Positions 8,042-43,663 of a DNA stretch of 64,000 nucleotides are shown in pieces. The DNA is from an uncultured Saprospiraceae bacterium. GTDB taxonomy: Bacteria > Bacteroidota > Bacteroidia > Chitinophagales > Saprospiraceae. The number at the start of each line of letters is the position of its first letter. The first letter of the stretch is position 1. A model generated the notes under the pieces. It made no database searches and was not told the origin of the DNA. It was given only the letters and a program-made list of their open reading frames with translations. The position numbers were made by a program, and so were the translations under genes. The stretch is from the NCBI GenBank assembly GCA_937929945.1, contig CALFUK010000163.1, positions 1 through 64,000 of the forward strand, read 5' to 3'.

Positions 8042-9600
8042 AGCGAGTCGACTTTAGATGTTAGTGACTTAATCTCTTTCTGTAGCTCTATGATGTATAA
8101 GGTCAATTCCTCGATTTTTTCCATTTGCATTTTTTGCATTTCGCCAATTTCAATTCCCTTTTCCTCGATAACTGTCGCTGATGGAATACCAGGTAAATGC
8201 TTATACTCTGCTATGAATGATTCTACCTTGTCTAATGACAGAAGCTCATAAGTTTCATCAAAGACATAGTCAGGCCAATTACCTGACAGCTGAACCAGCA
8301 CCTCCTCCGTAGCAATCTTACCGTCTACTGCCAGTTTGTAACCATTAGGTAAAACGGTCGTCCCGATGGTCACACCCCCAGTTCCGCCTGTAGCATAGAA
8401 ATTAATTTCGTCAGTAGCAGAAATACGTAATGGCTCTGTCGATTGGATGCTATTATAAAATGAGTTAAAATTCATTTGTATTCTACTTGTTCCTAAGCCA
8501 TCTCCATCATTCGTATTGCCCTTGCCGAACTGTATGCCTCCAGATTGAGATAGGACCATGGCATGCTGATTGGTTATCGCTCTATTTCCTGTAGAACCGA
8601 TATAGAGATAATCTCCTAAGTCTCCTCTCCACGCTTTCTTCAACCAGGTTTGGTTTCTGTATGCCGTCGAAAAGTTAGGTTCTACATGCTGAAAATTAAA
8701 TCCCCATTTTGTCTGCAAATCTGGACTATCGAATCTAATAGTCGAGTCAAAGAAACTCAGTTTGGCATCACCACTAGGGATTCCCAGATTAAGTGAACTG
8801 GAGGTCTGCCAGATTCTACCCACTTTAGTAGTGGTGAAAGGCGGCTGACCTGGCAAGCCAAAGGAAGTCATATTTCTCAAACTAATGCCCGTGTCATTAT
8901 TAAGACTTCCAGAGCTACCCACAGTTAATTCATCAATACTTGATGAAGTACCAACACTCACATCTCCCGTCGTATAGTAAATATTCGATCCTGCTGTAGA
9001 CCAAGGTGTCGCTCCTCCTGATCCATTGCCACTCGTCAATGATTGCCATGAGCCTCCTACACGTCCTTGGATATCTGATCCGTTATATCTGATCGTCCCA
9101 TTGGATACTGACGAATTTACTGCTTGATCACCCAGCCTGATAGAACGCTGAAATTCAGCATTTCCATTTTTGTAAATGGTGAATGCATTAGCTCGATTAG
9201 AAGAATTAAGGCCATTCCCTACTTCAAATAAGGGATCGGTTAATGTCCAAACTGTCAGGTCTCCACCACCAAGACTATACTGACCAAATGAGCTTTCTGC
9301 AAATGAATTTGCCCATGTAGATCTGCCTGTGGCAAAACTATAATTTCCTCTTGCCTCAGTATCAACTCCAAATGCTCCAGAGGAGAATCCTACATTTTCT
9401 TGTATCCATTCTGTTGTATTTGTTTTGCCAGCTCGAAATGCTGCTCTTGAAGGATACCAAAGTAACTTAATGCCATTGGTCGTCGTATCCTTTCCAAATA
9501 AAACCGTATGATTTTCTGCCACATGTAGACCAGGCTGGTCTTGCCCTACTAAAGAATACGTATAGCCCAAAAAGGCAATCATAAAGATGTATTGTTTCAT
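8038..9600 (-). CDS. Secreted trimeric-adhesin/tail-fibre-like protein
   Basis: I take the ATG at 9600 because it begins a clear signal peptide (MKQYIFMIAFLGYTYS, cut near VGQ); an upstream ATG at 9627 would add nine residues that spoil it. About 60 residues in, segments such as NYSFATGRSTWANSF resemble YadA-head repeats. The middle is low-complexity, with the Gly/Ser-rich and IRYNGSDIQG elements common in fibre-like proteins. The C-terminal 90 residues contain a HLPGIPSA motif and a heptad coiled coil (about the last 45 residues) typical of trimerising Bacteroidetes surface proteins. It leads a two-gene unit with the BNR protein, so the two may form one surface structure. Confidence 0.75.
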   Translation of the reverse strand: MKQYIFMIAFLGYTYSLVGQDQPGLHVAENHTVLFGKDTTTNGIKLLWYPSRAAFRAGKTNTTEWIQENVGFSSGAFGVDTEARGNYSFATGRSTWANSFAESSFGQYSLGGGDLTVWTLTDPLFEVGNGLNSSNRANAFTIYKNGNAEFQRSIRLGDQAVNSSVSNGTIRYNGSDIQGRVGGSWQSLTSGNGSGGATPWSTAGSNIYYTTGDVSVGTSSSIDELTVGSSGSLNNDTGISLRNMTSFGLPGQPPFTTTKVGRIWQTSSSLNLGIPSGDAKLSFFDSTIRFDSPDLQTKWGFNFQHVEPNFSTAYRNQTWLKKAWRGDLGDYLYIGSTGNRAITNQHAMVLSQSGGIQFGKGNTNDGDGLGTSRIQMNFNSFYNSIQSTEPLRISATDEINFYATGGTGGVTIGTTVLPNGYKLAVDGKIATEEVLVQLSGNWPDYVFDETYELLSLDKVESFIAEYKHLPGIPSATVIEEKGIEIGEMQKMQMEKIEELTLYIIELQKEIKSLTSKVDSL

Positions 9601-9638
9601 AATTTTAGATTTAGTTATTACAGCCAATATCAGTTATC

Positions 9639-9720
9639 TCACACAGAATAATTTAGTCAATGAGTAAGCGGTCACCTTGGCTGTGTGAACGGTCAGTTTT
9701 TCATGGTAAGCGGTAATTTA
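9639..9720. repeat. Short degenerate direct repeats with an inverted pair, possible IS21-end remnant
   Basis: Three spaced copies of an AGCGGT/AACGGT core (near 9667, 9689 and 9709, the middle one extended as ACGGTCAGTTT) lie together, with an 8-bp inverted pair TCACACAG/CTGTGTGA at 9639-9646 and 9681-9688. Multiple GGTCAGTTT-like copies are a feature of IS21-family element ends, but no transposase gene is nearby. This is a suggestion by resemblance only. Confidence 0.25.
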
Positions 9721-9899
9721 GAAGAGGCTCGTCTGATGGTAGGATCAAGGCATCAGAGTTTATCTGAAAGATATATTGGATTGGGTGTGCCCTATGGCAT
9801 TCAGGCATAAATCTTACACGGATCAACTTTATACAAGAGTAAATGAAAATGTATACAGCTTCAAGCTCTGAGTATGTGGACACAATTGATCAAAAAGGA

Positions 9900-10082
9900 T
9901 TATCCATAATAATAGATCAATTTATGCCCGTCGCCCCAATAGCTTAAAAGCTTCGCATTAGACATAATCCATAGCACCTCTCCTACCTCTCTCATCAGGA
10001 CTGCAGCATGTTCTCCAGCGAAGTGAATGCGATGATGCTGATTACCAATGTCATCGGCAAATGCTTTTACAATCGTAAATAA
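9900..10082 (-). pseudogene. Orphan open frame without a start, possible gene remnant
   Basis: A minus-strand frame of 60 codons is open between a TGA near 10084 and TAA at 9900-9902. It lacks an upstream start and reads ADDIGNQHHRIHFAGEHA in its middle. The HFAGEHA segment resembles the conserved FAGEHT motif near the C-terminus of flavin amine oxidases, but the residues after it do not fit. It lies in the 502-bp stretch between the fibre-like gene and the vWA gene, which otherwise shows only short repeats. It may be a decayed gene end or coincidence. Confidence 0.25.
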
Positions 10083-15962: not shown

Positions 15963-17369
15963 TCAACTCTTTACCTCCTGAAAAGCTGCTTCTAAAGCAG
16001 CAACGACGACATCAATCTCACTTTGTTGAATCACAAGCGGTGGCGAAATAATCAGCTTATTTCCTGAGGTCCGTATGATGGCACCATGATCTAAGGACTT
16101 TTGGTAAATGGCATTTACATATGGTTTAGCCATTGGGGTTTTCTTCTCTTTGTCTGAGACAAGTTCAATGGCTACCATTAAGCCTTTGCCTCTGACCTCT
16201 CCTACAGTCTCAAACTTATCCTCAAAGGGCTTTAATCTCTTCATCAGATACTCACCCTGTACCGCGGCATTATCAGGTAAGTTTTCGTCTTCGACAATTT
16301 TGAGAGATGCGATTGCTGCAGCACAGCCCAGCGGGTGACCAGAATACGTATATCCGTGAGCGATATTTCCAAAACCATCAGCATTTTGATGAAAAGCCTC
16401 GTCAATTTTTTCATTAAACATGGTAGCACCTAATGGAATGTAACCTGATGAAATACCTTTGGCCAAACACATGACATCTGGCTTCGTATCCCACCCTCTA
16501 GATCCAAACATACTACCAGTCCTACCGAATCCAGTGATGACCTCGTCAGCGATGAACAAGACACCATGTTTGTCACACACTTCTCTACATAAGGGAAAGA
16601 AATTTTCAGGCGGTACTATTACGCCACCAGCACCCTGCACCGGCTCAGCGATAAATGCTGCCACTGTATCCGCCCCTTGAAACTGAATCATTCGATCCAG
16701 TTGATCTGCTATTATTTCTCCCAGTCTTATGGGATCGTCATCAGTGTAGGGATTTCGGTATAACCAAGGTGAATCTAAGTGAAAGCAGCCCTGAAGCATT
16801 GGTTCATAAGCTCGCCTGAATCGGGAATTGCCATTTACAGATGCTGCACCAAAATGAGTACCATGGTACCCTTGTTTGAGTGAGATAAACTTATATCGAT
16901 CTTTGAATCCCAATATTTTCCAATACTGTCGCGCGATGCGTAAAGCAGTTTCCATAGCATCCGAGCCTCCTGAACTATAGAAGACACGCTTCATGTTTTC
17001 GTGCGCTGTCATTTCAATCAGCTTTCGAGACAGCTCAATTGATCTAGGATGTGACGTTCCTCGAAATGTAGAATAATATACTAACTCATCCATTTGGTCC
17101 ACTATTGCCTTCTTAATTTCTTCTCGCCCATAGCCACAGTTCACATTCCAAAGGCCACCGACTCCATCAACATATGTTTTTCCATCCACATCCTCTACAC
17201 GGACGCCATGCCCCGTCTTTATAATCAATGGCGGATTTTTTAATGAATCATTGGGATGGCCCATAGGATGCCATTGGTCCTTCCCATTCCACTCATTCCA
17301 CATCTCCTTTTGCAAATCTATCCTTACAAGATCTTTCTCTCCTGCTTCATTTATTTTTGAAAATTCCAT
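15963..17369 (-). CDS. Class III PLP-dependent aminotransferase (omega-amino acid type)
   Basis: The 468-residue enzyme has the class III fold with the PLP-binding lysine at K304 (CLAKGISSGY), the cofactor-ring aspartate D275 (ADEVITGFGRTG) and the HGYTYSGHPLGCAA segment of omega-amino acid:pyruvate transaminases. It would move an amino group from a terminal amine or omega-amino acid to pyruvate or another keto acid, giving an aldehyde. It is the last gene of the catabolic block, 4 bp after the HAD gene. Substrates such as beta-alanine, putrescine or taurine are all possible and cannot be told apart here. Confidence 0.88.
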   Translation of the reverse strand: MEFSKINEAGEKDLVRIDLQKEMWNEWNGKDQWHPMGHPNDSLKNPPLIIKTGHGVRVEDVDGKTYVDGVGGLWNVNCGYGREEIKKAIVDQMDELVYYSTFRGTSHPRSIELSRKLIEMTAHENMKRVFYSSGGSDAMETALRIARQYWKILGFKDRYKFISLKQGYHGTHFGAASVNGNSRFRRAYEPMLQGCFHLDSPWLYRNPYTDDDPIRLGEIIADQLDRMIQFQGADTVAAFIAEPVQGAGGVIVPPENFFPLCREVCDKHGVLFIADEVITGFGRTGSMFGSRGWDTKPDVMCLAKGISSGYIPLGATMFNEKIDEAFHQNADGFGNIAHGYTYSGHPLGCAAAIASLKIVEDENLPDNAAVQGEYLMKRLKPFEDKFETVGEVRGKGLMVAIELVSDKEKKTPMAKPYVNAIYQKSLDHGAIIRTSGNKLIISPPLVIQQSEIDVVVAALEAAFQEVKS

Positions 17370-17373
17370 ATGC

Positions 17374-18051
17374 TTAATTGCTTTTAAAAAATGATGGTTG
17401 ATTATTTAGATTAAGTACTCTGAGCACATATTCGTAACAGGCATCAGGCTGTGTAATGTCGAAGTGAAGCGTTCTGAGTCCACACTTCATAGCTCCCACT
17501 ATATTTCTGAGCTGATCATCGACAAAAAGGACCTCTGTCGGCTCTAATCGTAGTTCATCCAATGCTGTCTTATAAGCCCTTGGATCAGGTTTTAATATTT
17601 TAGAGTGAGTCGCATCATAAAAACTATCCAATTGCTTTCTGAATGGTAAGTTGTCTACAAAGGCTTTACCAGTAAATAATTCAATTTCATTGCTTAAAAT
17701 ACCTACTTTAAGCTCTGCCCGCTTAGCCAGTTCAATAGTTCTAACTGCTTGAGGTCTCAAAACTTTAGAATAATCAGTATCACCGCCCATTCCATTCAAT
17801 AAGTCTGGCATTGTCCAATTATCATGTCCTAGCAAAGCCCCAATTTCTTTAGCCCTTGTAGACCAATAATCTCGTTCGGTGATTTCATCTCTTTGCATCG
17901 ACATCCATAGCTCATCACTTGCTGGATCAAATGGACCTCTCCAAGTCAATGTCCCTTCTTCAAGTCCTAATGCATCCTCTGTCACCCGATGCCTTTCGAA
18001 TAAAGATTTACTAATGACGCTCCCAAAATCTAACAATAATGCTTTTATCAC
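17374..18051 (-). CDS. HAD-IA family hydrolase
   Basis: The 225-residue protein shows HAD motif I as LLDFGSV (nucleophile D8), motif II ILSNE, the motif III lysine in LKPDPRAY, and motif IV FVDDQLRN. Motif I has glycine where phosphatases usually have the second aspartate, as in the YihX and epoxide-hydrolase N-terminal subgroup, so phosphatase activity is likely but not certain. It starts with GTG overlapping the amine oxidase stop (GTGA). Sitting between amine oxidase and transaminase, it may remove a phosphate or similar group from a pathway intermediate. Confidence 0.82.
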   Translation of the reverse strand: MIKALLLDFGSVISKSLFERHRVTEDALGLEEGTLTWRGPFDPASDELWMSMQRDEITERDYWSTRAKEIGALLGHDNWTMPDLLNGMGGDTDYSKVLRPQAVRTIELAKRAELKVGILSNEIELFTGKAFVDNLPFRKQLDSFYDATHSKILKPDPRAYKTALDELRLEPTEVLFVDDQLRNIVGAMKCGLRTLHFDITQPDACYEYVLRVLNLNNQPSFFKSN

Positions 18052-19358
18052 CCTATTTTTGTTTTATATATTTTTCTTGCTGTGGAAATACCACTTTCTA
18101 TGGCTCCATCAATAAAACCCCTCCAGCCTTTGGCGATATCACCTCCGGAAAAAAAAACATTGCCTTCTGGAGTCAAGGCATTTTTAAAATATTTAGAAAA
18201 TTGTTGAGGTCTAAAATTCCCCCATGTTCCAAGTATATGGTCATCCTTTGACCAATCATGAAACTTGAAATCAAGGACCTTATACGCTTTGTCCCATCGA
18301 TTGATTTCCCGTTGAAGAGAATCAATAGTAATATCCTCCATCGGAAATTCTGGATTGCTGAAGGCAATAACTACAGATTTTTCATCACCAATCACATGAG
18401 GTAATACACTGAGTATCGGCGTATTAATAGAAGACCACCGGCTATCTTTAAATTTCCCCTTTAGCTCAATATATATCTTATGTCCCTTACCTGATAATTC
18501 TTCATTGGACAACTGAAGCTTTTCATCTGAAATTATTGGGTCAAATACAATATTTTTCCATGTATTCACTGGTGTAGCAATAAGGCAGTGTTCAGCTGAA
18601 TACGTACCCGTTGATGAAGACACTTCCACACCCGTTGATGTCTTTGATACCTTTGCCACTTTAGACTGAAGGACAAAATCAGCTTGGCTATCTTCAGCGA
18701 TACAATGAAGTAAATGAGTCGTGCCTTCCTTTATAGAAAATCGACTCAGGCTATCAGCATAAGTTTCGTCATGCGAATTGGCTAATGCGTACCATCTCAT
18801 TGCTTCAAGATAAGCCCCATTACTTGGCGCATTATTACACTGTATGCTTGTCGTCCTTAATAAAGTGATCTTCTGTAGTTTCGTTAATTCCAGCTGGTTG
18901 ACTCTATCCTCATTAGACAGTGAATCATACTTCTTGTACTCATCATTATAAAAAGGATTAAAAGGGTGTGGAAAAACTACTTTCGCTGGTTTTACATATT
19001 CTTGGAATGCTGCACTAATCTGTTTTGACTCCTCAGCTGTAAATTCAAACTTAAGTTCTCCATTGATCAAGAACCGAGTTTGCTGCATCGTGTTTGTTCT
19101 TGCATAATATGGCCTCTCCTTTACTGAAAGATGATACCTATTTATTTCATTCCATACATGTGGCTGACTCCAGTAGACATAGCCACCACCTAATTCGATC
19201 GGCACACCGTTCAGGTCAGCTGACCAAGCTCTACCACCTAAGCGCTCTTTTGCTTCCAGCACCAGTACAGATTTTCCTAATTGAGTTAACTCTCTGGCAG
19301 CTGACACACCGGTAAAACCACCACCCACTATAATCACATCGTATCTACTATTCGGCAT
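18048..19358 (-). CDS. FAD-dependent amine oxidase
   Basis: The 436-residue protein begins with the FAD-binding motif GGGFTG (residues 12-17), followed by the LEAKERLGGRAWS segment that marks the flavin monoamine oxidase family. The C-terminal FAD segment is FFSGGDIAKGWRGFIDGAIESG. There is no signal peptide, so it acts in the cytoplasm. It would oxidise an amine to the imine, which hydrolyses to an aldehyde and ammonia; the dehydrogenase encoded upstream could take the aldehyde on. It follows the permease gene by 2 bp and overlaps the HAD gene by 4 bp. Confidence 0.88.
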   Translation of the reverse strand: MPNSRYDVIIVGGGFTGVSAARELTQLGKSVLVLEAKERLGGRAWSADLNGVPIELGGGYVYWSQPHVWNEINRYHLSVKERPYYARTNTMQQTRFLINGELKFEFTAEESKQISAAFQEYVKPAKVVFPHPFNPFYNDEYKKYDSLSNEDRVNQLELTKLQKITLLRTTSIQCNNAPSNGAYLEAMRWYALANSHDETYADSLSRFSIKEGTTHLLHCIAEDSQADFVLQSKVAKVSKTSTGVEVSSSTGTYSAEHCLIATPVNTWKNIVFDPIISDEKLQLSNEELSGKGHKIYIELKGKFKDSRWSSINTPILSVLPHVIGDEKSVVIAFSNPEFPMEDITIDSLQREINRWDKAYKVLDFKFHDWSKDDHILGTWGNFRPQQFSKYFKNALTPEGNVFFSGGDIAKGWRGFIDGAIESGISTARKIYKTKIG

Positions 19359-19360
19359 TT

Positions 19361-20767
19361 CTAAGACTGTTGATTTAATAATTCCTCTGGCTCAATCGGC
19401 TTCCATAAATCTTCCCTCTGCCTTTTTAACCAAATAATTGAATATGCTGCACAAATCGCAAGCATGATGAAAAATGGGATATAAATCTGCGAAGCATTTA
19501 AGAAAGGAGGTGTCAAGTAAAAGAAGGTTATCATCAATCCGATAATAGCCAACAACTGAGGTATAGGATAGAGAGGTGCCTTAAATGGCCGATGCAAATC
19601 TGGCCGCCTCGTCCTTAAACGTATAACAGATATATTAACCAATAAATAAAAAAATATCCACGAACATATGGCTGCTAGAATGAGTACAAATACCCCATCG
19701 ATATCTGTACCTATTAAAAATGTGCCAACCATGGGGATTAATCCAATAAAGATAATGCCGATATAAGGCGTTTTATATTTTGGATGTTCTCTTGCGAAAA
19801 TAGAAGGCAACATTTTGTCCTTTGCCATACCTGACAATATTCTTGGGATGCTGGCGATGAGTAAATTGATGAGCGCTACAGTAGCAATAAATATGAGTAA
19901 TATAAAGCCCCATTTTCCAATGTCACCTAAGACTGCTTCTCCAAAAATAAGGGACGCCTCTGGTGTATCTAGCACTGTCGTTTGACTAGCCTCATCAATG
20001 ATCACGTTTGGCACTTGTCTAACGATACCCGCACCAAAAATCAACATGCCAATCAAAGACATTGTCATGCCCGTAAATAATGATCTAGGAATATCTCTAT
20101 TCGGATTTTTCATTTCAGGGGCTAATGGTGTCACGTACTCTGCGCCCACAAATAAAAAAAGTGTAAAACCTATCATACTAATAATGCTGCTCCAGTCATC
20201 CATGAGACTAAATCCACTCCAGAACCCCGTTAGATCTACCTTCGGTGCGATGAATAATCCCATAAGGCCCAAAATCACAAGTACCGCATACTTAAAATAG
20301 GACATCGCTATTTCTACTACAGCAAAGAGTTCTATGCCTCTGATGTTTATCAGCATACAAACGACAACAATAAACCAACCAATTATCCAAGACTGATCAA
20401 CAGGAATAAAATTCAAAAAAGGAAAGTTAGCTTGGGCAAATAATCCCGCTGCTGCTACCTCAGCAGATGATGCAAAGCAAGTCACAATCACATAGGCCGC
20501 TAGTGTGGCGGTCACACCCCAGAATCTACCCATACCAGCTGTCACATAGTCATACACTGCACCTTCTGTCGGAATAAAACTTGATAACTCAGCAAAGCTC
20601 GTAGCCTGACACATCATCAAAACATATGACAGAAGTAGACCAATAAAGAAAATAGGTGCATTGATATTAATCCCTTGTGTGATAGTGAGCAATGACGAAG
20701 CAATGAGCATTAATCCTAAGATCGACGCGATGCCAGTGGGTGTACCTAATTTACGAGTGTGATCCAT
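19361..20767 (-). CDS. APC-superfamily amino acid/amine permease
   Basis: The 468-residue protein has about 12 hydrophobic helices. The unwound first helix, with its substrate-backbone motif, is recognisable in the N-terminal GIASILGLML region, and the conserved PRILSGMAKDKMLP loop after helix 8 supports the APC assignment. It is an inner-membrane transporter, probably a proton symporter or exchanger. It lies 17 bp downstream of the Tm-1-like gene and 2 bp before the amine oxidase gene, so it likely imports the substrate of that enzyme. Confidence 0.9.
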   Translation of the reverse strand: MDHTRKLGTPTGIASILGLMLIASSLLTITQGININAPIFFIGLLLSYVLMMCQATSFAELSSFIPTEGAVYDYVTAGMGRFWGVTATLAAYVIVTCFASSAEVAAAGLFAQANFPFLNFIPVDQSWIIGWFIVVVCMLINIRGIELFAVVEIAMSYFKYAVLVILGLMGLFIAPKVDLTGFWSGFSLMDDWSSIISMIGFTLFLFVGAEYVTPLAPEMKNPNRDIPRSLFTGMTMSLIGMLIFGAGIVRQVPNVIIDEASQTTVLDTPEASLIFGEAVLGDIGKWGFILLIFIATVALINLLIASIPRILSGMAKDKMLPSIFAREHPKYKTPYIGIIFIGLIPMVGTFLIGTDIDGVFVLILAAICSWIFFYLLVNISVIRLRTRRPDLHRPFKAPLYPIPQLLAIIGLMITFFYLTPPFLNASQIYIPFFIMLAICAAYSIIWLKRQREDLWKPIEPEELLNQQS

Positions 20768-20784
20768 AACAAGTCCTTTATAGA

Positions 20785-22020
20785 TTATTCAGATTTAATT
20801 GTACCATCAGCTACCCAGGCATCAAATATTTCTAAAACCTTATCTACGAATGCTTGATCATTGATATGCGCATCCAGTTCTATAAGATCTATATGTTCAC
20901 CGATGTTTCCTTTCAGTTCTGCGTTAAAGACACTCAATGCCTCCTTATCATGAAATACTTCCCCTTCTCTATCCCATTCTATAAGGCCGTCATTGCATAA
21001 AATGAGCTTTACCTTGTCTTTGGATTTATTGACTTTTTGAGCTATATATCGGCCAGATTCTGCGACTTGATCTAAGCCAAGTGTGATTGATGCTATCAAT
21101 CTATTATGTGCATGATATGGTCGATCACTGTATTTTTCTGGCAGCTTCTGCCAAGTGGGAAAGTCAATAAAGAATGCTGCTCCAGGACAAATAATCTGCG
21201 GTATTCCAGCATTTCCTGCATTTTCTAATCTATCCTTACCAGAATTAACAATGGAGCCCCATAAGCCATTAATGACCTCTGGAACACTAAAATCCATGAC
21301 GGCAACAAATCGATTCTTTGATGATAAGTTTTCTAAGGCTCTTCCTCCTTGACCAGTGGTATGAAACACAGCTAATTCAAATCCTCTCTTTTCTAATTCT
21401 GGCTTTAGTATCTTCATATAGGTCAGTGCAGAACTGCCTAATGAAGACATCCCCACCACAGGCTTGTCAAACTTGGGCGTGACAACTCCCCTGGCAGCAC
21501 CCACGACAGCACCACATGCCTGACTCAATGAAGCTTTACAAATAGAATTCAAACCATACAATCCACCTGACCAAAGTATCATCATCAGATCAGGACTCAA
21601 CCTATCTGGTGGTATCAGGTGCGAGAAAGCAACGGTACTCACTATAAATTTTGGAAATCCAAAAGGCAATGCGTCGGCAACATCCAATGATAAATCTGTA
21701 CCCATTGTACCACCTAACATAATAACCCCATCTACTTTTCCTTCATCACATAATTGTCTACTCAGAATGCAGGCGCCTTCTGCCGTTTTAGTCATGGCCT
21801 TATTCTCATCACCTAGGTCTATGATAGCCTGATTACTCGTATTCGCCGCAGCAGCAATATCAAATCGTGATATATCAACTTCAAAAGTGGGATCTCCTAA
21901 AACTCCGACATCCATAACAATTGTACGTTCACCTAAATCTTCAATACAGTTTTTCATGAAGATTAATTCTTCCGATTTGGTATCACCTGTACCTATAATG
22001 AGAATTGTTTTCATATTCAT
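20785..22020 (-). CDS. Tm-1-like ATP-binding (UPF0261) protein
   Basis: The 411-residue protein matches UPF0261/Tm-1-like proteins, with the N-terminal GTGDTKSEEL motif, a glycine-rich LGGTMGTDLS loop and the conserved GMSSLGSSALTYMK segment. The plant relative Tm-1 binds ATP and blocks a viral replicase. Bacterial members are uncharacterised and often lie in catabolic operons. Here it sits between the permease and aldehyde dehydrogenase genes, so a metabolic role on the imported substrate is likely. The ATG follows directly after the repeat array. Confidence 0.85.
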   Translation of the reverse strand: MNMKTILIIGTGDTKSEELIFMKNCIEDLGERTIVMDVGVLGDPTFEVDISRFDIAAAANTSNQAIIDLGDENKAMTKTAEGACILSRQLCDEGKVDGVIMLGGTMGTDLSLDVADALPFGFPKFIVSTVAFSHLIPPDRLSPDLMMILWSGGLYGLNSICKASLSQACGAVVGAARGVVTPKFDKPVVGMSSLGSSALTYMKILKPELEKRGFELAVFHTTGQGGRALENLSSKNRFVAVMDFSVPEVINGLWGSIVNSGKDRLENAGNAGIPQIICPGAAFFIDFPTWQKLPEKYSDRPYHAHNRLIASITLGLDQVAESGRYIAQKVNKSKDKVKLILCNDGLIEWDREGEVFHDKEALSVFNAELKGNIGEHIDLIELDAHINDQAFVDKVLEIFDAWVADGTIKSE

Positions 22021-22201
22021 AAATTTTGTAACTAAATGCCTGTCAGCAAATAACTAAGTTCAATCATCCACTTGGGTATCTTAATTATCTACGTCATAGA
22101 CGTTTCATATTTTTAAATTTTGTAACTGAATCCTGACAGCAAATAGCTAATTGTAATCATCCACTTGGACCTCTTATTTATCTGCGCTACCGCCGCTTCA
22201 T
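22021..22201. repeat. Two-copy intergenic tandem repeat (locus A)
   Basis: Unit A1 (22021-22108, 88 bp) and diverged unit A2 (22109-22201, 93 bp) fill the gap between the aldehyde dehydrogenase stop and the Tm-1-like ATG. On the minus (sense) strand each unit begins with ATGAA plus a CG-containing codon, so it opens a tiny frame that stops after four codons (MKRL or MKRR). It contains a CATCC-AAGT-GGATG-type hairpin and ends in an AAATTT-rich leader before the next ATG. A1 differs from unit B1 of the other locus (41865) at only 2 of 68 positions. Unit length is not a multiple of three, so the array is not a protein repeat. Confidence 0.85.
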
Positions 22202-22222
22202 AAATTAAAATTAATGCATAAA

Positions 22223-23722
22223 CTAACTATAATGCAGGCAAACAGATTTAGCCTCGGTATAGGCATCAATTGCCGACCTACCTAATTCCTTACCAATACC
22301 ACTTTGTTTAAAACCGCCCAATGGCAAATTGGGATCTGATCTGACGGGAGAATTCACATATATGATACCTGCCTTTATTTGATCAATTAAGCGATGTGCC
22401 TTATGCAAATTCGAAGTCCAGATACTTGCTGAAAGACCATAGATCGTATCATTAGCTTTCCTGAGAAGATCATCAAAATCATCATAGGGCATAGCAGTGA
22501 TGACTGGACCAAAGATCTCTTCCGTTTCTACTGACACCTTCTTATTTTCGGTATTCGCAAAAATCGTAGGCTCTACGAAGTAGCCTTTTCCTTCGCCCTT
22601 ATGTCCTCCTGTGACCAGTTCTATATTGTCATTTTTACCCTCTTCAATGTACTGCATGACTTTCTTAAAATGATCTTCTGAGACCACTGGTCCTAACTTA
22701 GTATCAGGTCCAAAACCACTGCCAAGTTTCATGCTGGAGGCTATGCCAGCCATATCAGCGAGTGTATTGTCAAACTTAGCTTTTGGTAGAAATAATCTTG
22801 AGCCTGATACACATACTTGTCCTTGATTATAAAAAATGCCTTTGCAAATACCTCCAGGAACTTTTGTGTAATCCGCATCATCTAAAACCAAGACAGGATT
22901 TTTACCTCCTAATTCTAAAGTAAATGACTTAAGTCGTTTTGCAGCATTTTGTCCAATGATACGACCTGTGTCAGATGACCCAGTAAATGTGACCTTAGCT
23001 ACCGAAGGATGATGTATCATCGCTTGGCCCGTCTTGATGCCAGAACCAGTGACTACGTTAATCAAGCCTTTCGGAAAATGTGAAATACTAGTCGATAGCT
23101 CAGCTAATCTCAGGGCAGTCAATGGGGTGAACTCAGATGGCTTAAAAATCACAGCACAACCACACGCCAAGGCTGGAGCGATTTTCCACGCATACATCAT
23201 AATGGGCACATTCCACGGCGCTATGGCAGCCACAACACCTACGGGCTCCCTCTTCGTATATGCGAAGTGATCCCCGCCAGACAATGATACATCTAAAGTC
23301 GATCCTTCAATTTTAGTCGACCAACCAGCATAATATCTAAAACAATTGACTGCAGCACTCACTTCTTTCTTGGCATCACTGAATAGTTTACCGTGCTCTA
23401 AGACAAGTAATTGTGCCAATTCCTCCGCGTGTGCTTCGATAAGTGTAGCGTAATCAAAAAGAGCCTTTTCCTTTTGATTAGGAAGTACTTTCTTCCATTC
23501 CTTGATAGCTCGCACTGCCGCTTGAGCAGCAATATCTACGACTGGTTCACCAGCTTCTGCAATCGTTGCAATAGGCTCTTCTGAGTACGGATCGTGTACT
23601 GAGATCAGTTCGTTCGTCTGAGCTGCTAGGTATTCTCCATTGACAAATGAGCTATACTCCTTTCTAGCTAGGAAAGAGGATACCTCAGGATGAAGATCTA
23701 CGATATCATGTGCTACTGTCAT
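22223..23722 (-). CDS. NAD(P)-dependent aldehyde dehydrogenase (paralogue A)
   Basis: The 499-residue enzyme has the standard ALDH residues: N171 (APWNVP), general base E270 (TLELGGK) and nucleophile C304 (NQGQVCVSGSR). The C-terminal oligomerisation segment YVNSPVRSDPNLPLGG is shared almost word for word with the second dehydrogenase at 42143, so the two are paralogues. It would oxidise the aldehyde formed by the amine oxidase or transaminase to an acid. It overlaps the sulfatase stop by 4 bp (ATGA) and is followed by the repeat array. Confidence 0.93.
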   Translation of the reverse strand: MTVAHDIVDLHPEVSSFLARKEYSSFVNGEYLAAQTNELISVHDPYSEEPIATIAEAGEPVVDIAAQAAVRAIKEWKKVLPNQKEKALFDYATLIEAHAEELAQLLVLEHGKLFSDAKKEVSAAVNCFRYYAGWSTKIEGSTLDVSLSGGDHFAYTKREPVGVVAAIAPWNVPIMMYAWKIAPALACGCAVIFKPSEFTPLTALRLAELSTSISHFPKGLINVVTGSGIKTGQAMIHHPSVAKVTFTGSSDTGRIIGQNAAKRLKSFTLELGGKNPVLVLDDADYTKVPGGICKGIFYNQGQVCVSGSRLFLPKAKFDNTLADMAGIASSMKLGSGFGPDTKLGPVVSEDHFKKVMQYIEEGKNDNIELVTGGHKGEGKGYFVEPTIFANTENKKVSVETEEIFGPVITAMPYDDFDDLLRKANDTIYGLSASIWTSNLHKAHRLIDQIKAGIIYVNSPVRSDPNLPLGGFKQSGIGKELGRSAIDAYTEAKSVCLHYS

Positions 23723-25428
23723 TCTTCCGCTTTTGTTTGATTGTCATTCCAATATGATTCTGTAGCATATGCCGTCGGTCGATCTGGTAGAACGACTCCA
23801 TTTCTTTGTTCATATGTGGCCCAGCCCAAGATCAATTCTTCTAATTTTTCAGGATGTGATTGAGCTACATTGTGCTGTTGGCTTATATCTTCCTTAATAT
23901 TATACAGTTCCCAACTATTAGTCCCATACGGTTCTTCCATCCACTCGATTTTCCAATCTCCTTTTCTGACAGACCGACGTCCGTATAATTCCCAAGCATG
24001 TACATCATCTTCACTGTAGATAGATTCTGATTTGTCAGTGACATAAGATTGCATTGATTTGCCTTGTAAAGCATGCACTGGTCTATCATTATATAGCTTT
24101 CCAGGGTGTGGTACATTCGCTAATTCTAAGAATGTGGGCGCTAGATCAAGTATGGATACGAACTCATCTTTAATTGATCCACCCTCCATATTCCACTTTG
24201 GGTAATGCACGATTGCAGGCACACGTATGCCACCTTCTGTCGCAAAGGCTTTATACCACTTAAATGGCTGACTCACTGCTTGTGCCCAGCCTGCGCCTAA
24301 CTCTACATAAGAGTTGATACGTCCCATATTCTCATAGCTCGTATCGAATGAACGTTCCACCCATTCACCAGTATCTTCATAAGTTAGAATACTATTGCCC
24401 TCTGCGCCATTATCCGCTAGAAATATGATCATTGTATTTTCGTATTCACCAATGCTTTTTAAGTGCTCGATGACTCTTCCTGTATGATGATCTAATCGTT
24501 CTATCATGGCAGCATAGACTTCCATCGATTTACTCGATCTTAGTTTTTCATCATCGCTCAAGTCGCTCCAGGGTCTAACATTTGGGGTTAATGATGCTAT
24601 GTCTGATGTAAGCGGGATTATGCCTTTCTCTTTGGCGGCTTTTAGTCTCCTTGTTGCGAGTACTTCGTAGCCATCATTATATTGATCCTTATACAAATCA
24701 ATATGTTCATCCTTGACTTGTAGTGGCCAATGAGGTGCTGTAAAAGATAAAAAGTGGAAAAAAGGTTTTTCGGCTTCTTGGCTTTCATTGATATATTCTA
24801 TTGCCCTATCAGCGTAGTACTGGCTAGAATAAAAATCATGGTGAAGCGTATCTACAAATGTGCTGTCTTCTATATAGGTTGCCTCGTCAAAATATGAAAG
24901 AAACGGTTGTTTATCATGAAAATGCCCTCCTGCACCGCGCATCAAACAGAAAGATCTGGTAAAGCCTCGGTTAACAGGCCATTGTTCTATTTTTGACTGA
25001 TTTGCCATATGCCATTTGCCTGCGATAGAAGTATGATACCCAGCATCTTTGAGCAGCTGGCTAAAGGGTACAATGTCAAAATTGAGATAACCCTCATATC
25101 CCTTTTTCCCCTTCTGATTCTCTGCCCAATCACCAGCCATGGTACCAAAACCACTTAAATGTGCTGACACACCAGAGAGCAACATCGCCCTTGCAGGTGA
25201 ACATGTGGGTGCTGTACAAAACGACGAAAATCTACTGCCGCTCGAAGCTAACGCGTCGATGTGAGGAGTACGGATCTCACTGCCATAACATCCTAAATCC
25301 GTGTAACCAAGATCGTCGGCAACAATAAGGAGAATATTAGGACGCTTTACATTCTCAGAAGACGGCTGACATTGTATTAAACAGACAATTGAAACACATA
25401 GAAAACTATGAAGACTCAAATATTTCAT
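23719..25428 (-). CDS. Type I sulfatase, lipoprotein
   Basis: I use the ATG at 25428; an in-frame ATG at 25440 adds four residues. A lipoprotein signal ends LIQC (C24 in the longer numbering), so the enzyme is anchored in a membrane facing the periplasm or the outside. The formylglycine motif C-S-P-A-R (C80-R84) is intact, and the metal-binding ADDLGYTDLGCYG segment lies at 41-53. Type I sulfatases hydrolyse sulfate esters after the cysteine is converted to formylglycine; no maturase gene is in the window. Length and C-terminal subdomain are normal. It lies between the TonB receptor and the dehydrogenase genes, suggesting a sulfated substrate. Confidence 0.93.
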   Translation of the reverse strand: MKYLSLHSFLCVSIVCLIQCQPSSENVKRPNILLIVADDLGYTDLGCYGSEIRTPHIDALASSGSRFSSFCTAPTCSPARAMLLSGVSAHLSGFGTMAGDWAENQKGKKGYEGYLNFDIVPFSQLLKDAGYHTSIAGKWHMANQSKIEQWPVNRGFTRSFCLMRGAGGHFHDKQPFLSYFDEATYIEDSTFVDTLHHDFYSSQYYADRAIEYINESQEAEKPFFHFLSFTAPHWPLQVKDEHIDLYKDQYNDGYEVLATRRLKAAKEKGIIPLTSDIASLTPNVRPWSDLSDDEKLRSSKSMEVYAAMIERLDHHTGRVIEHLKSIGEYENTMIIFLADNGAEGNSILTYEDTGEWVERSFDTSYENMGRINSYVELGAGWAQAVSQPFKWYKAFATEGGIRVPAIVHYPKWNMEGGSIKDEFVSILDLAPTFLELANVPHPGKLYNDRPVHALQGKSMQSYVTDKSESIYSEDDVHAWELYGRRSVRKGDWKIEWMEEPYGTNSWELYNIKEDISQQHNVAQSHPEKLEELILGWATYEQRNGVVLPDRPTAYATESYWNDNQTKAEE

Positions 25429-25529
25429 TTTCAAATACAATCAAAATAACATTTAGTTTGTACATATATGGGGGACGGGAAATTTAAATATCTATCAGCT
25501 GATCAGCTATAAATAAATAAACTTAGAGA

Positions 25530-38780: not shown

Positions 38781-40238
38781 CTACGTCAAATACCAGCGGC
38801 TCACCACCTCAGCAATCTCCTCATCAGAAGGATATTGCTCCAGGATCATACCGGCGTATAGATCAGCTGTAGTAGGATCAGTCTGAAGGCTACCTGCCTG
38901 ATGCAGGGCCGCCTCATCCTGCACATCCACTTGGTATATCTCATCAATGTGTAAGGGGATAAACTGGCGATGCTTCAGTATTTTCCGAAAGACAAACTCA
39001 TAGACATCTGGATCATAGGGCGGCTGACCGTCCATCGGAATACTTCTGCCATAGTCATTGGCAATGCCGCAGATTCTTTTCCAGAGCATCAACATCACAG
39101 ATGGCTTGGCTCCTGACCACACCTTGGCATCTTCAGCTATTTGGGCAGCACGGTCAGCTTCTATTTTTGCTCTGACTCTGATGGACGGAATCGGACAAAT
39201 GACCTGAAAGGCACTGCTGCTCAAAAACAACTCCAGCTCCTTATCAGATTGCACCTGGGCTAACTCTATAAACCGATGACCAACTAAAGGCGCTTCTATC
39301 AATAGTAACTGAGACTTATCTTCTTGGTGTGACTCCATCCACGCTTTCACTGTGGCCAAGAGCCATGCGCCCGCAGACAGTTTGACTCCATCATGGACGA
39401 CACCATCCCCCATCGGAAACCGCTCTTCTATCAGCGGTGTCTCAAAAGCTTTGCGTGCCACATCCCACTGAATGACCGTCACCTTACGCCCTTCTGATGC
39501 GGCAGTGTGCTTAAACTGATTGATGTAGAGACTCTTGCCCACACCAGGCAAGCCAGAGAAAACAACAGCCTTGGCACTGACAGCAGCCTGCCGCAACGTC
39601 TGAAATACGAGGCTGCTTTCCGGAATAATATTCAGATCGCTATCCTCCAGTGAGAATGCTTTATTGGATCTCAGGCCCATCTTCCTGCCATGCTCTTTAA
39701 AATACTCTTCCATAAGGGGTGTCTTGAGGCTGATGGTATTTTGCAGTTCTATGATATCCACGGTATGAGCCTCTGTGTCATAGATGGCAAAGGTAGCTCG
39801 CTTAGTCTTACTGGCGGCGATCTCACCAGGATTGACCACCCAGCAGTCACCGGTCTGATCCACTGCCTCTATATGATTGTGCCCGTAGAAGACAGCATCA
39901 TACTTTCCTGACTGAGCCATGGGTACGGCCAGATCATCATAATGAGAGATAAATATATGCCTACCGCCCAGCTCTATAAAGTCATAGGTATTGGTACTGA
40001 TCGTCAGCTGGCTATTGTCTCTCATGGCTGCCTGTACTATCTCTACCCGCTCCCCATCATTATTCCCCCAAATCATAAATACGGGTATATCTTGAGTCGC
40101 TAATAACTTAGCTATGCCGCTATTCATCAAATCCCCCAAGCAAAGAATCTGCTCAATGTCATGCTGCTCCATGGCCTGCAGTGCTAAGATCAGATTATGA
40201 AAATTCTCGTGTATGTCTGAGATGATGGCGATTTTCAT
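38781..40238 (-). CDS. Fusion of YfcE-type metallophosphoesterase and P-loop NTPase/kinase-like domain
   Basis: The 485-residue protein starts with a calcineurin-like phosphoesterase domain (about 1-165) with all metal motifs: D8-x-H10, GD36, GNND around 58-61, H99 and GH120-N-H122. After a linker comes a P-loop domain (about 215-480) with Walker A GLPGVGKS (229-236) and a possible Walker B LLLIEAPL. The C-terminal half resembles small-molecule or polynucleotide kinases but I cannot place it. Phosphatase plus P-loop resembles end-healing Pnkp enzymes in reverse order; this is only analogy. Its ATG directly follows the stop of the ThDP-enzyme gene with no gap, so the two are co-expressed. Confidence 0.78.
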   Translation of the reverse strand: MKIAIISDIHENFHNLILALQAMEQHDIEQILCLGDLMNSGIAKLLATQDIPVFMIWGNNDGERVEIVQAAMRDNSQLTISTNTYDFIELGGRHIFISHYDDLAVPMAQSGKYDAVFYGHNHIEAVDQTGDCWVVNPGEIAASKTKRATFAIYDTEAHTVDIIELQNTISLKTPLMEEYFKEHGRKMGLRSNKAFSLEDSDLNIIPESSLVFQTLRQAAVSAKAVVFSGLPGVGKSLYINQFKHTAASEGRKVTVIQWDVARKAFETPLIEERFPMGDGVVHDGVKLSAGAWLLATVKAWMESHQEDKSQLLLIEAPLVGHRFIELAQVQSDKELELFLSSSAFQVICPIPSIRVRAKIEADRAAQIAEDAKVWSGAKPSVMLMLWKRICGIANDYGRSIPMDGQPPYDPDVYEFVFRKILKHRQFIPLHIDEIYQVDVQDEAALHQAGSLQTDPTTADLYAGMILEQYPSDEEIAEVVSRWYLT

Positions 40239-41864
40239 TTACCTGATTTTTGCTAGTGCTTTGAATCGATTGGTGCTGGGTAGCCCCGTACCCATGGGTA
40301 CTTCTATGACTGTGGGCAGACTCTCCCCTTTGGCATTCTGAATGGCCTGGCGCATGGCATCAAAATCATCCACTCGCACTGCATTCGCACCGAATGACTG
40401 AGCCATTTTCACAAAATCTGGATTGTGTAGATCCGTCGCAATGACTCGATTGTCGTATAAATTCTCTTGCATGTCTCGCACATTGCCATACAGGTTATTA
40501 TTAAAGAGCAGGAGGATGACGCCTATCTTATGCTGCACGGCCGTAGCCAGCTCCTGCACACCAAACATGAATCCGCCATCACCCGCCACAGAGATAACTG
40601 GCACATCAGGCCGAGCTACCTTAGCCCCGAGCGCCGTCTGAAATCCCCAACCGAGAGTGCCCATAAACCCCGTACAAAGATAAGTCCGAGGTAAATATGC
40701 ATCATAGACAATTCGACTAGCGAAGCCCACTTGGGTCAATTCATCAACTAATATACCATCATCTGGCAGCTCGTCTCGAATGATATTCAAGATGGTGGAC
40801 TGCGGCTCCAGATAGGCCGTTTTTTCATTCCATGATTGGCGAAAGGCTGCCATCTCAGTTGCCTTAGAAAGCCTTGGCGTAGTAATATGAGCAAGCTTAT
40901 CTAATAGAGCACTGGAAGCCTGGGCTGCATCAGCTGTGATACTGAGTGTCGGCTCTATGATTCTATTGTGAGCGGTCTCATCAATATTAATGCTGATGTA
41001 TTTTAGATGATCATCCACACCCCACTTGCTCAGTGGCATCCTGGCATGACTTCCTATGCTAATGACAACATCAGCCTCTGCCCAAAGCTCATGCGCTGCT
41101 GGCACGGGAAAACTGAGATGATGCCTGTTGGATAGGATTCCCTTACCAGTCCTGTAAGCGAAAGTTGGTGCCTGGAGAAATTCTGCTAGGGCCTGGACCT
41201 GAGTACTCGCCTCCATGGCTCCGCCGCTGACAAAAATCAATGGATGCTTTGCGCCCGCGATCATATCTGCCGCCTGGGCAATGGCTGAGTCATCCAGCTC
41301 CGGCAGGATGGTCTGCGCTGGCTGATAAGTAGAAAAATCAATCTCAGCACTGGCGGACAAGACGTCCATAGACACTTCGACTCCCACGGGGCGCGGTCTA
41401 CCATTTTGCAGCTGATGAAAGGCCCGCGCCATGATCGCTGGCACCTCTTCAGGGGATGTGGCCCGCTCAGCCCATTTAGTCAGCTGTCGCTGGATGGCCA
41501 GTTGATCCGGTATCTCATGCAGTACGCCTCGGCCCTTGCCTTGAGCCTTCTGCGGTATCTGACCCACTAGTGAGAGCACTTTAGCATTCAGCCCCCAAGC
41601 AGTGGCTAAAGCCGCTGAGCTATTGAGAAAACCTGGACCCGGCACCACACTACTCACGCCCACCTTCCCCGAAGCGAGGTTATAGCCTAAGGCCATATAG
41701 CCTGCCGCTTGCTCATGGCGTGTATGGATGACCTTTATTTCATCCCGATAATCATACAGTGCATTATATAGCCAGTCATTCTGTACACCAGGCAATCCGA
41801 AAATCGTATCGACGCCCTCTTTGATCAGACTCCTGACTACTGCTTGTCCTCCTGTTAATTTCAT
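40239..41864 (-). CDS. ThDP-dependent enzyme of the acetolactate synthase/decarboxylase family
   Basis: The 541-residue protein has the three-domain layout of POX/ALS-type enzymes: PYR domain with catalytic glutamate E51 (RHEQAAG), a central domain, and PP domain with the ThDP motif starting GDGGFMF and ending NNNLYG (about 430-460). Such enzymes decarboxylate 2-oxo acids or join the resulting activated aldehyde to another molecule. The quinone-binding tail of pyruvate oxidase is not evident. Followed by the phosphoesterase fusion and preceded by an aldehyde dehydrogenase gene, it might make an aldehyde that the dehydrogenase oxidises. The ATG directly abuts the repeat array. Confidence 0.87.
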   Translation of the reverse strand: MKLTGGQAVVRSLIKEGVDTIFGLPGVQNDWLYNALYDYRDEIKVIHTRHEQAAGYMALGYNLASGKVGVSSVVPGPGFLNSSAALATAWGLNAKVLSLVGQIPQKAQGKGRGVLHEIPDQLAIQRQLTKWAERATSPEEVPAIMARAFHQLQNGRPRPVGVEVSMDVLSASAEIDFSTYQPAQTILPELDDSAIAQAADMIAGAKHPLIFVSGGAMEASTQVQALAEFLQAPTFAYRTGKGILSNRHHLSFPVPAAHELWAEADVVISIGSHARMPLSKWGVDDHLKYISINIDETAHNRIIEPTLSITADAAQASSALLDKLAHITTPRLSKATEMAAFRQSWNEKTAYLEPQSTILNIIRDELPDDGILVDELTQVGFASRIVYDAYLPRTYLCTGFMGTLGWGFQTALGAKVARPDVPVISVAGDGGFMFGVQELATAVQHKIGVILLLFNNNLYGNVRDMQENLYDNRVIATDLHNPDFVKMAQSFGANAVRVDDFDAMRQAIQNAKGESLPTVIEVPMGTGLPSTNRFKALAKIR

Positions 41865-42142: not shown

Positions 42143-43663
42143 TTAAAATACAATATTGACAGACTTCAATGTGGTATAATTATACACGCCCGTCTTGCCT
42201 AATTCTCTTCCGATGCCAGAATGCTTGTAGCCCCCCAATGGCAGATTTGGATCTGAGCGCACTGGCGAATTGACGTAGACTACACCCGCTTGTAATCGAT
42301 TGATCATGGTCATTGCTTTAGAGATATCTTGAGTCCACACTGTGGCAGCCAGTCCCATCGAAGAATCATTAGCTTTCTCCAGCGCATCTTCCAGGTCATC
42401 AAAAGGTACGGCAACGAGCACAGGGCCAAATATTTCTTCTTCAATGATGGTCTGCTGATGATCCGTGGCGCTAAAGACCGTGGGCTGCATGTAGTATCCT
42501 TTCTCCATGGGATTACGCCCTCCTGACAGTAGCTGAGCGCCGTCCTTTTTGCCTTGGTCAATATAAGCCTGTACCGTCTGTAAATGGCTCTTAGATACTA
42601 AAGGCCCCAAATCAGCCGTCTCATCAAAACCATGTGAAATCTTCATAGACTCCCCAGCATGGCAGATATCAGTCAACACCCGATCAAACGACTTCTTCTG
42701 AATGTATACGCGCGATCCTGCGACACAGACCTGGCCCTGGTTTCTAAAAATACCCGCAGCTATTCCTTTGGCCGTTTCAGCCTGGTCTATCATATCATCA
42801 AAGACCACAGCTGGTGACTTACCGCCCAGCTCCAGCGATACTCCGGTGATATTCTCCATGGCCGCTTTGCCTATCAGCTTGCCCGTGTGAGTAGACCCAG
42901 TAAAGGTTATTTTTTTCACATCAGGATGACTTGTCAGCGCAGCACCTGTAGTAGCGCCATCACCCGTCACCACATTGAGCACGCCAGGTGGTAGGCCAGC
43001 TTCTATAGCCAGCTCTGCTAGTAGTAGGGCTGAGAGTGGTGTCTCCTCTGAGGGTTTGAGGACCACGGTGCAGCCTGCTGCTAAGGCTGGAGCCACCTTC
43101 CATGATGCTATGGATACGGGAAAATTCCATGGTACCACCGCTGCTACCACACCTATGGGCTCTCTGCGAGTGAGTGCAAAATTCTGCTTGCCTCCCTTTT
43201 GCGGCTGGGACAGGTCCAGGGTCTCACCTTCTATCTTCGTGGTCCAGCCAGCATAATACCGAAATGTCTTCGCAGCACCTCCGGCATCTGAGCTTCTGGA
43301 ATCCTTGATTAATTTTCCATTTTCTAAAGTGACAAGCTGTGCAATGGTCTCTGTATGCTCCTCGATCAAGTCTGCATATCGATATAAGATCTTACCGCGA
43401 TCATCTGGACTCATCCTCCGCCAGGGGCTGGCGTGATGAAAGGCCTTCAGCGCAGAAGCCACTGCCGCATCCACATCATCCGCACTACCAAGAGACACTC
43501 TACCGATGACATCCTCAGTGGCAGAATTGATCACCGCAATTTGCTGGTCTGTAGAACCACTTTGATACGCACCATGTATAAAGTGTTTATGGTTCTGCAA
43601 AGCCAAAAATTCGCTGAGTCTCGTTGTAAGTGCCGCCGTATCATTCATTTTGGATTCTATCAT
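42143..43663 (-). CDS. NAD(P)-dependent aldehyde dehydrogenase (paralogue B)
   Basis: The 506-residue enzyme has N180 (VPWNFP), general base E278 (SLELGGK) and nucleophile C313 (NQGQVCVAGSR), and shares the YVNSPVRSDPNLPLGG C-terminal segment with paralogue A at 22223. An in-frame ATG at 43648 is an alternative start. It is the first gene of a minus-strand unit with the ThDP enzyme and phosphoesterase fusion, separated from them by the repeat array. The aldehyde substrate is unknown. Confidence 0.93.
   Translation of the reverse strand: MIESKMNDTAALTTRLSEFLALQNHKHFIHGAYQSGSTDQQIAVINSATEDVIGRVSLGSADDVDAAVASALKAFHHASPWRRMSPDDRGKILYRYADLIEEHTETIAQLVTLENGKLIKDSRSSDAGGAAKTFRYYAGWTTKIEGETLDLSQPQKGGKQNFALTRREPIGVVAAVVPWNFPVSIASWKVAPALAAGCTVVLKPSEETPLSALLLAELAIEAGLPPGVLNVVTGDGATTGAALTSHPDVKKITFTGSTHTGKLIGKAAMENITGVSLELGGKSPAVVFDDMIDQAETAKGIAAGIFRNQGQVCVAGSRVYIQKKSFDRVLTDICHAGESMKISHGFDETADLGPLVSKSHLQTVQAYIDQGKKDGAQLLSGGRNPMEKGYYMQPTVFSATDHQQTIIEEEIFGPVLVAVPFDDLEDALEKANDSSMGLAATVWTQDISKAMTMINRLQAGVVYVNSPVRSDPNLPLGGYKHSGIGRELGKTGVYNYTTLKSVNIVF

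Follow-up and report, generated by a model that had tools for sequence, protein, structure and literature searches.

A YfcE-type phosphoesterase fused to a kinase-like P-loop domain, predicted to serve aromatic amino acid catabolism in Saprospiraceae

In a 64,000-nucleotide stretch of DNA from an uncultured Saprospiraceae bacterium (the window, meaning the whole stretch analysed), a gene was found that encodes a YfcE-type metallophosphoesterase domain and a kinase-like P-loop domain on a single chain. Its gene context makes it very probable that the fusion serves the catabolism of aromatic amino acids to homoprotocatechuate, the amino acid degraded being most likely tyrosine. The protein may, with about even confidence, be proposed to act there as a bifunctional enzyme that combines a small-molecule hydroxyl kinase with a phosphoesterase. 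Judged by profile searches, the P-loop domain appears to constitute a new family, for which neither Pfam nor NCBIfam has a model.

The fusion protein and its two halves

The sequence-only reading of this gene had described a single-chain YfcE-like phosphoesterase and P-loop kinase-like domain, joined to the gene of a ThDP enzyme with no gap, and both statements were borne out. One open reading frame (Table 1) encodes a 485-aa product in which the YfcE-type domain is followed by a linker and then by the P-loop domain, and because eight other loci carry an intact fusion, an assembly or frameshift artefact can be dismissed. In an AF2 model of the full fusion, built from 9 sequences, residues 174-194 of the linker are helical; with a mean pLDDT of 71 and a pTM of 0.55, the packing of the domains is not readable from this model. 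The architecture was not found described in the literature searched, which took in few subscription journals.

Table 1. Features of the fusion gene and its upstream neighbours in the window
Feature	Coordinates	Strand	Basis
Whole fusion gene, 485 aa + stop	38781..40238	minus	ORF and translation; 8 further intact fusions
YfcE-type metallophosphoesterase domain, residues 1-165	39744..40238	minus	TIGR00040 over cut-off, PF12850, PF00149, MJ0936
Linker, residues 166-200	39639..39743	minus	matches C-terminal tail (..GFRS..) of separate YfcE genes
P-loop domain, kinase-like, residues 201-485 (start approximate)	38784..39638	minus	AF2 model; 29-sequence alignment A2
Walker A GLPGVGKS, residues 229-236	39531..39554	minus	G60, P62, G65, K66 and S67 of A2 invariant, 29/29
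DxxR (D259-V-A-R262) after second strand; may serve as base and anchor of the acceptor site	39453..39464	minus	invariant, 29/29
E315, Walker B-like glutamate, end of third strand (LLLIEAPLVG)	39294..39296	minus	invariant, 29/29
R356 and R363, helix after strand 4; putative lid residues	39150..39173	minus	invariant, 29/29; helix in model
ThDP-dependent decarboxylase-like enzyme, 541 aa, abuts fusion gene upstream, no gap	40239..41864	minus	NF006122 (PRK08266)
Aldehyde dehydrogenase, 506 aa, upstream of ThDP gene	42143..43663	minus	PF00171; orthologues beside HpaD/HpaE

The N-terminal half scored 74.7 bits against the TIGR00040 yfcE model (cut-off 56.25), which places it in that family, and 100.5 bits against PF12850 (E 1.2e-28), while its best PDB match was to the structures of MJ0936 (E 4e-19). 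The phosphoesterase metal motifs had been said to be intact, and D8, H10, G35-D36, H99, G119-H120 and H122 were indeed all present. With N59 and D61, the metal and catalytic residues D8, H10, D36, H99, H120 and H122 make up eight checked positions, all of them invariant in the window protein and 11 separate YfcE genes; in all 9 fused homologues the metal-site residues were likewise unchanged. The YfcE half is thus predicted to be an enzyme of the phosphodiesterase family.

The Walker A motif of the C-terminal half lies where the sequence-only reading had put it. Its further claim that this half belongs to no recognised family held in Pfam, NCBIfam, PHROGs (searched with the C-terminal half) and PDB sequences, and no known family already described in such an architecture was found. 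The one match over a curated cut-off was to PF03308 (MeaB; 24.1 bits against 23.1), confined to residues 207-278 in the Walker A region, beyond which no Pfam or NCBIfam family exceeded its cut-off. The MeaB equivalog TIGR00750 reached 25.1 bits of the 240.75 needed (residues 206-265 only) and the PSTK equivalog TIGR03574 12 bits of 290.5, and a Pfam search of the window protein gave no AAA_33 match. A phage origin was considered and rejected, as the C-terminal half was unmatched in phage records and gave only E-values of 0.07-0.09 in PHROGs. Five plasmid records were matched, two through the P-loop half and three through the YfcE half.

Walker A, an acceptor-site DxxR and lid arginines are the defining features of P-loop hydroxyl kinases, and this set was present in all 29 sequences of the P-loop alignment, from which a divergent alphaproteobacterial subgroup had been left out. 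The profile of this alignment gave weak matches to adenylate kinase (E 2.1e-4), seryl-tRNA kinase (PSTK; 0.0012) and APS kinase (0.011), and at these weak E-values D259 and R262 were set on the D-x-x-R-x-x-F of seryl-tRNA kinase and the D-x-A-R of APS kinase. The domain is real and kinase-like, as had been stated; that it acts as a kinase we infer from these features as probable. The subgroup left out (L122, L123 and L124, at about 8.7-9.7 kb) consists of divergent homologues adjoining an MFS transporter gene in genomes with HpaD over cut-off; L123, the one sequence of the three that was inspected, has D-A-G-L in place of the DxxR of other homologues.

An AF2 model of the P-loop domain (mean pLDDT 87.7, pTM 0.84) showed a kinase/GTPase core, for which the structural matches were Get3 (Z 9.7), adenylate kinase (8.8), PFKFB2 (8.6), seryl-tRNA kinase (8.5) and polynucleotide kinase (8.2), the Get3-type ATPases and adenylate kinase being nearly tied with no clear winner; the best Foldseek E-value was 6.6e-4. 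As Get3 and ArsA chains head this list and MeaB, a GTPase chaperone family, is just over its cut-off, the domain could instead resemble MeaB, CooC or Get3 in function. It would then be an ATPase or GTPase serving as activator or chaperone, by which an enzyme of the pathway (the ThDP decarboxylase or the dioxygenase, for instance) is loaded or repaired, with YfcE as a helper hydrolase. That the domain is closely tied in its occurrence to a single enzyme, the ThDP decarboxylase, would suit such a role. Against it, the MeaB match is limited to the surroundings of Walker A and falls far below the equivalog cut-off, and the DxxR, the lid arginines and a glutamate rather than an aspartate in strand 3 are better suited to hydroxyl kinases. 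We regard a chaperone or activator as rather unlikely, and the hydroxyl kinase is preferred.

Distribution, gene context and the homoprotocatechuate pathway

The neighbouring ThDP enzyme is a member of the NF006122 (PRK08266) subfamily, with 705.8 bits against a cut-off of 571. The aldehyde dehydrogenase upstream, likely the first gene of the run, had phenylacetaldehyde dehydrogenase StyD as its best NCBIfam model (620.8 bits, under the cut-off of 850), and its orthologues sit in hpa clusters of other genomes, in two of which (G530 and G541) the orthologue lies beside HpaD and HpaE. The window's own genome (G000) encodes HpaD on contig C199 at 1504-2379 (370.4 bits against a cut-off of 321.4), together with HpaF-like and HpaG-like proteins and an aromatic-acid transporter, and on another contig than the window an aminotransferase 50% identical to that of locus L014. 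Elsewhere in the window, at 15963-25440 on the minus strand, lies an amine or amino acid catabolic run with a class III aminotransferase, a flavin amine oxidase, an amino acid permease, a UPF0261 protein, a second aldehyde dehydrogenase, a sulfatase and a HAD hydrolase, the last sharing 47% identity with the HAD protein at the rhizobial locus.

A scan covering 84,980 species genomes yielded 28 loci with the P-loop domain, and genome samples of 40, 395, 150 and 198 were also searched for it. The 28 loci belong to Saprospiraceae and other Bacteroidota, roseobacters and their relatives, a Rhizobium, one further proteobacterium and a member of the Dehalococcoidia; stand-alone P-loop genes occur in Saprospiraceae, roseobacters, Rhizobium/Agrobacterium and Chloroflexota, and the family is present in at least three phyla. 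The two halves are fused as in the window at eight loci (L008-L015) and encoded by abutting genes, 0-6 bp apart, at seven (L017-L021, L024 and L025), giving 15 of 28 in which they are fused or abutting; at the other 13 the P-loop gene has no adjoining YfcE gene. In 20 of the 28 stretches there was a ThDP gene from the subfamily of the window's own, and two of the eight stretches without one (L018 and L029) begin at a contig end that lies under 200 bp from the P-loop gene.

The tail of the separate YfcE genes runs on into the linker of the fusions. In a 37-row tree a single change separates the fused from the separate sets (support 93/90), so the tree is consistent with a single fusion event in Saprospiraceae. 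One stand-alone P-loop gene (L016:7896-8873, genome G002) was placed among the fused clade, and its genome lacks ThDP, YfcE and HpaD orthologues; it is probably the remnant of a lost module.

Co-occurrence was assessed in 150 genomes of the window's family, the Saprospiraceae. The P-loop domain was present in eight (E <1e-100), a match of E 2.8e-4 in G512 being left out of this count. Orthologues of ThDP (at least 64% identity, the next match at 33%) and of YfcE (at least 63%, the next at 36%) each occurred in seven, and HpaD of at least 300 bits in eight, the next match having 191 bits; the HpaD of G443, counted among the eight, is below the curated cut-off and is split over two contigs as two partial matches, of which one begins at a contig end. 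The ThDP and YfcE sets are the same seven genomes, all of which also have the P-loop domain and HpaD, and the only exceptions were G002 (P-loop domain only) and G500 (HpaD only). Fisher p-values for the gene pairs ranged from 2e-10 to 3e-12 when the relatedness of the genomes is ignored. In G441 the ThDP gene is in the hpa cluster on another contig than YfcE and the P-loop gene, and in G443 the P-loop gene is on another contig than ThDP and YfcE; linkage alone therefore does not account for the co-occurrence. In the alphaproteobacterial family of L027, HpaD over cut-off was found in 12 of 12 domain carriers (seven from the genome sample and five via the loci, these five placed in the family by name; the weak carriers G675 and G735, E 1e-4 to 1e-3, not counted) as compared with 2 of 15 non-carriers. 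No HpaD over cut-off was found in three other genomes with the P-loop domain: a Rhizobium, one unplaced proteobacterial MAG and the member of the Chloroflexota.

The co-occurrence bears on two further explanations. Two unrelated housekeeping enzymes might share an operon with the decarboxylase, their fusion being functionally meaningless; stand-alone P-loop copies without YfcE exist (L016, L022, L023 and L026), and gaps of a few base pairs would make accidental fusion easy, yet the three-way co-occurrence in 7 of 150 genomes, two of them with unlinked parts, makes this explanation very improbable. The sequence-only reading had likened the pair to RNA/DNA end-repair enzymes or to a nucleotide-metabolism switch, and a reversed counterpart of bacterial Pnkp (kinase plus calcineurin-type phosphatase) would agree with the presence of the DxxR in T4 PNK and of polynucleotide kinase chains (4jt2, 2ia5 and 1yj5; Z 7.8-8.2) among the structural matches. 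No ligase domain or repair gene was recognised in the protein (Pfam and NCBIfam) or among the annotated neighbours, AAA_33 is missing from the Pfam matches, and the neighbouring and co-occurring genes encode an aminotransferase, aldehyde dehydrogenases, the ThDP decarboxylase and enzymes of the homoprotocatechuate pathway. Nucleic-acid repair was rejected on this context, and we give it scarcely any probability; a role in nucleotide metabolism likewise found no support there. From the joint occurrence of ThDP, YfcE, P-loop domain and HpaD it follows that the fusion should be assigned to aromatic amino acid catabolism, in line with the metabolic link that had been drawn from the ThDP gene.

The clusters themselves comprise HpaF-like, HpaD, ThDP, aldehyde dehydrogenase, HpaE, HpaH and HpaI in G441; an HpaD end, an aminotransferase, ThDP, YfcE and a succinate-semialdehyde dehydrogenase in G443; and HpaF, HpaD, HpaE, HpaH, HpaI, an AraC-type regulator nearest HpaA, a gene of 364 aa and an aminotransferase in G001. 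Read together, the neighbours would spell a route from aromatic amino acid via arylpyruvate, arylacetaldehyde and arylacetate to homoprotocatechuate cleavage. A tryptophan-to-auxin (indole-3-acetate) route was first read from an aromatic amino acid (Trp/Tyr) permease near L014, L012 and L016, an M20 amidohydrolase among the neighbours at P-loop loci and kynurenine-pathway genes adjoining L018, and was set aside: tyrosine is the better reading because HpaD, HpaE, HpaH and HpaI lie in or around the clusters along with a biopterin-type aromatic amino acid hydroxylase (at L019, with the same protein cluster at L021 and L025 and a 78% identical protein in G441). Tryptophan may be an additional substrate, given the kynurenine-pathway genes. 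Genomes of the fused type repeatedly have a sulfatase gene, placed either upstream of the fusion or ThDP gene or within the hpa cluster (L008:77-1540, L012:3-476, L014:3397-4830 and L163:5976-7439), and a Ruegeria has one as well (L029:2462-4282); the sulfatases may supply sulfated aromatic substrates.

HpaB was tried as a part of the module and dropped: PF03241 matched just 3 of the 7 genomes that have the module, and 23 in the whole sample of 150. As HpaB is missing by this model in G441, G443, G530 and G541, another ring hydroxylase would be needed there. A conserved 364-aa protein (L130:8565-9659, L132:3836-4930, L024:5693-6787 and L166:7706-8800) is encoded between ThDP and YfcE in L024, G541 and G530, and within the hpa cluster of G001. 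Neither Pfam nor NCBIfam gave a match to this protein, and its profile, searched against the PDB up to E 10, gave a single, non-significant match (E 1.2) to heme-dependent L-tyrosine hydroxylase, in which the aligned stretches (VIRPxM, GFSGT, IHxxIAxRMV and SLLQE) look more than random. The protein is a candidate for replacing HpaB as ring hydroxylase in G530 and G541.

Proposed function and the phosphatase partner

In the function we propose, the C-terminal domain would be a kinase that uses ATP to phosphorylate a hydroxyl group of a small molecule: Walker A would bind ATP, D259 and R262 would bind and activate the acceptor, and R356 and R363 would form a lid on the phosphates. The YfcE domain at the N-terminus would then hydrolyse the phosphorylated product or a side-product, and the pair would serve the route of aminotransferase, ThDP decarboxylase, arylacetaldehyde dehydrogenase and HpaD meta-cleavage. 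The acceptor might be an intermediate of phenolic or enol type; a cofactor, for instance thiamine, is another candidate. Whether both halves act on the same small molecule is, in our estimate, an evenly balanced question.

Three observations underlie the notion that one compound is made and removed by the pair: the halves are fused, their genes adjoin where they are separate, and some alphaproteobacteria have a HAD hydrolase in the place of YfcE, with a HAD gene beside the P-loop gene at L006, L007/L031, L033, L035 and L126. The HAD hydrolase as a general phosphatase partner was upheld in part only, being absent beside the P-loop gene at seven loci (L027, L028, L029, L030, L032, L034 and L125); of 9 genomes searched for a HAD homologue, 2 had none and another 5 gave only a weak match. 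Most roseobacter loci have neither HAD nor YfcE adjoining the P-loop gene, which weakens the make-and-remove idea. At L007 (Rhizobium sp. 32-5/1) the aminotransferase (7310-8376) and ThDP (8379-9988) genes are each split into overlapping reading frames and therefore look frameshifted or mis-sequenced.

Opposing activities on one polypeptide, partnered with one enzyme set, would also fit an AceK-like protein kinase/phosphatase switch, with the ThDP decarboxylase or some other enzyme of the pathway as its reversibly phosphorylated target. YfcE-type enzymes, however, are known as phosphodiesterases and not as protein phosphatases, and the many roseobacters without a phosphatase half would have no reverse arm; such a switch is accordingly improbable in our judgement. 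Returning to the small-molecule kinase, a broader and distinctly tentative proposal is that a phosphorylated compound is either an intermediate or a gatekeeper of tyrosine-to-homoprotocatechuate catabolism in Saprospiraceae and roseobacters. The new P-loop kinase family would make this compound, and phosphatases that are not orthologous to each other, YfcE in Bacteroidota and HAD in some alphaproteobacteria, would remove it; in some genomes without HpaB the 364-aa neighbour would hydroxylate the ring, giving a DOPA route. If true, a catabolic pathway for aromatic compounds that has been well studied contains a phosphorylation step, or a control by phosphorylation, that has gone unrecognised, and the P-loop family responsible for it is spread over three or more phyla. 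The fused gene permits substrate matching, since the product of the kinase half should be the substrate of the phosphoesterase half.

Comparison with known systems

Bacterial Pnkp likewise pairs a P-loop kinase with a calcineurin-type phosphoesterase, and the kinase of CthPnkp is among the structural matches to the P-loop model; the window fusion differs in its reversed order, its lack of a ligase and its catabolic context. PFKFB (6-phosphofructo-2-kinase/fructose-2,6-bisphosphatase) also has a kinase and a phosphatase in one chain and shares the adenylate-kinase-like core (Z 8.6). Its phosphatase is a histidine phosphatase of another fold and its domain order is opposite to that of the window fusion. 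It has no sequence match to the window protein. PSTK, the O-phosphoseryl-tRNA(Sec) kinase, and APS kinase share with the P-loop half the Walker A motif, the profile-aligned D-x-x-R after strand 2 and a similar core fold, whereas only the first 50-odd residues align and the C-terminal half differs.

The YfcE/MJ0936 phosphodiesterase family (TIGR00040) is matched by the N-terminal 165 residues, over cut-off and with the full metal site, to which the window protein adds a C-terminal tail and the fused P-loop domain; against the E. coli yfcE equivalog PRK09453 it is below cut-off (64.9 against 117). To our knowledge, the classical homoprotocatechuate (4-hydroxyphenylacetate) meta-cleavage pathway has no kinase or YfcE-type member, and we know of no step in it that needs a kinase. 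The likeness to this pathway lies in the genes themselves, with HpaD, HpaE, HpaH, HpaI and HpaF found with or beside those for the ThDP enzyme, the aldehyde dehydrogenase and the aminotransferase.
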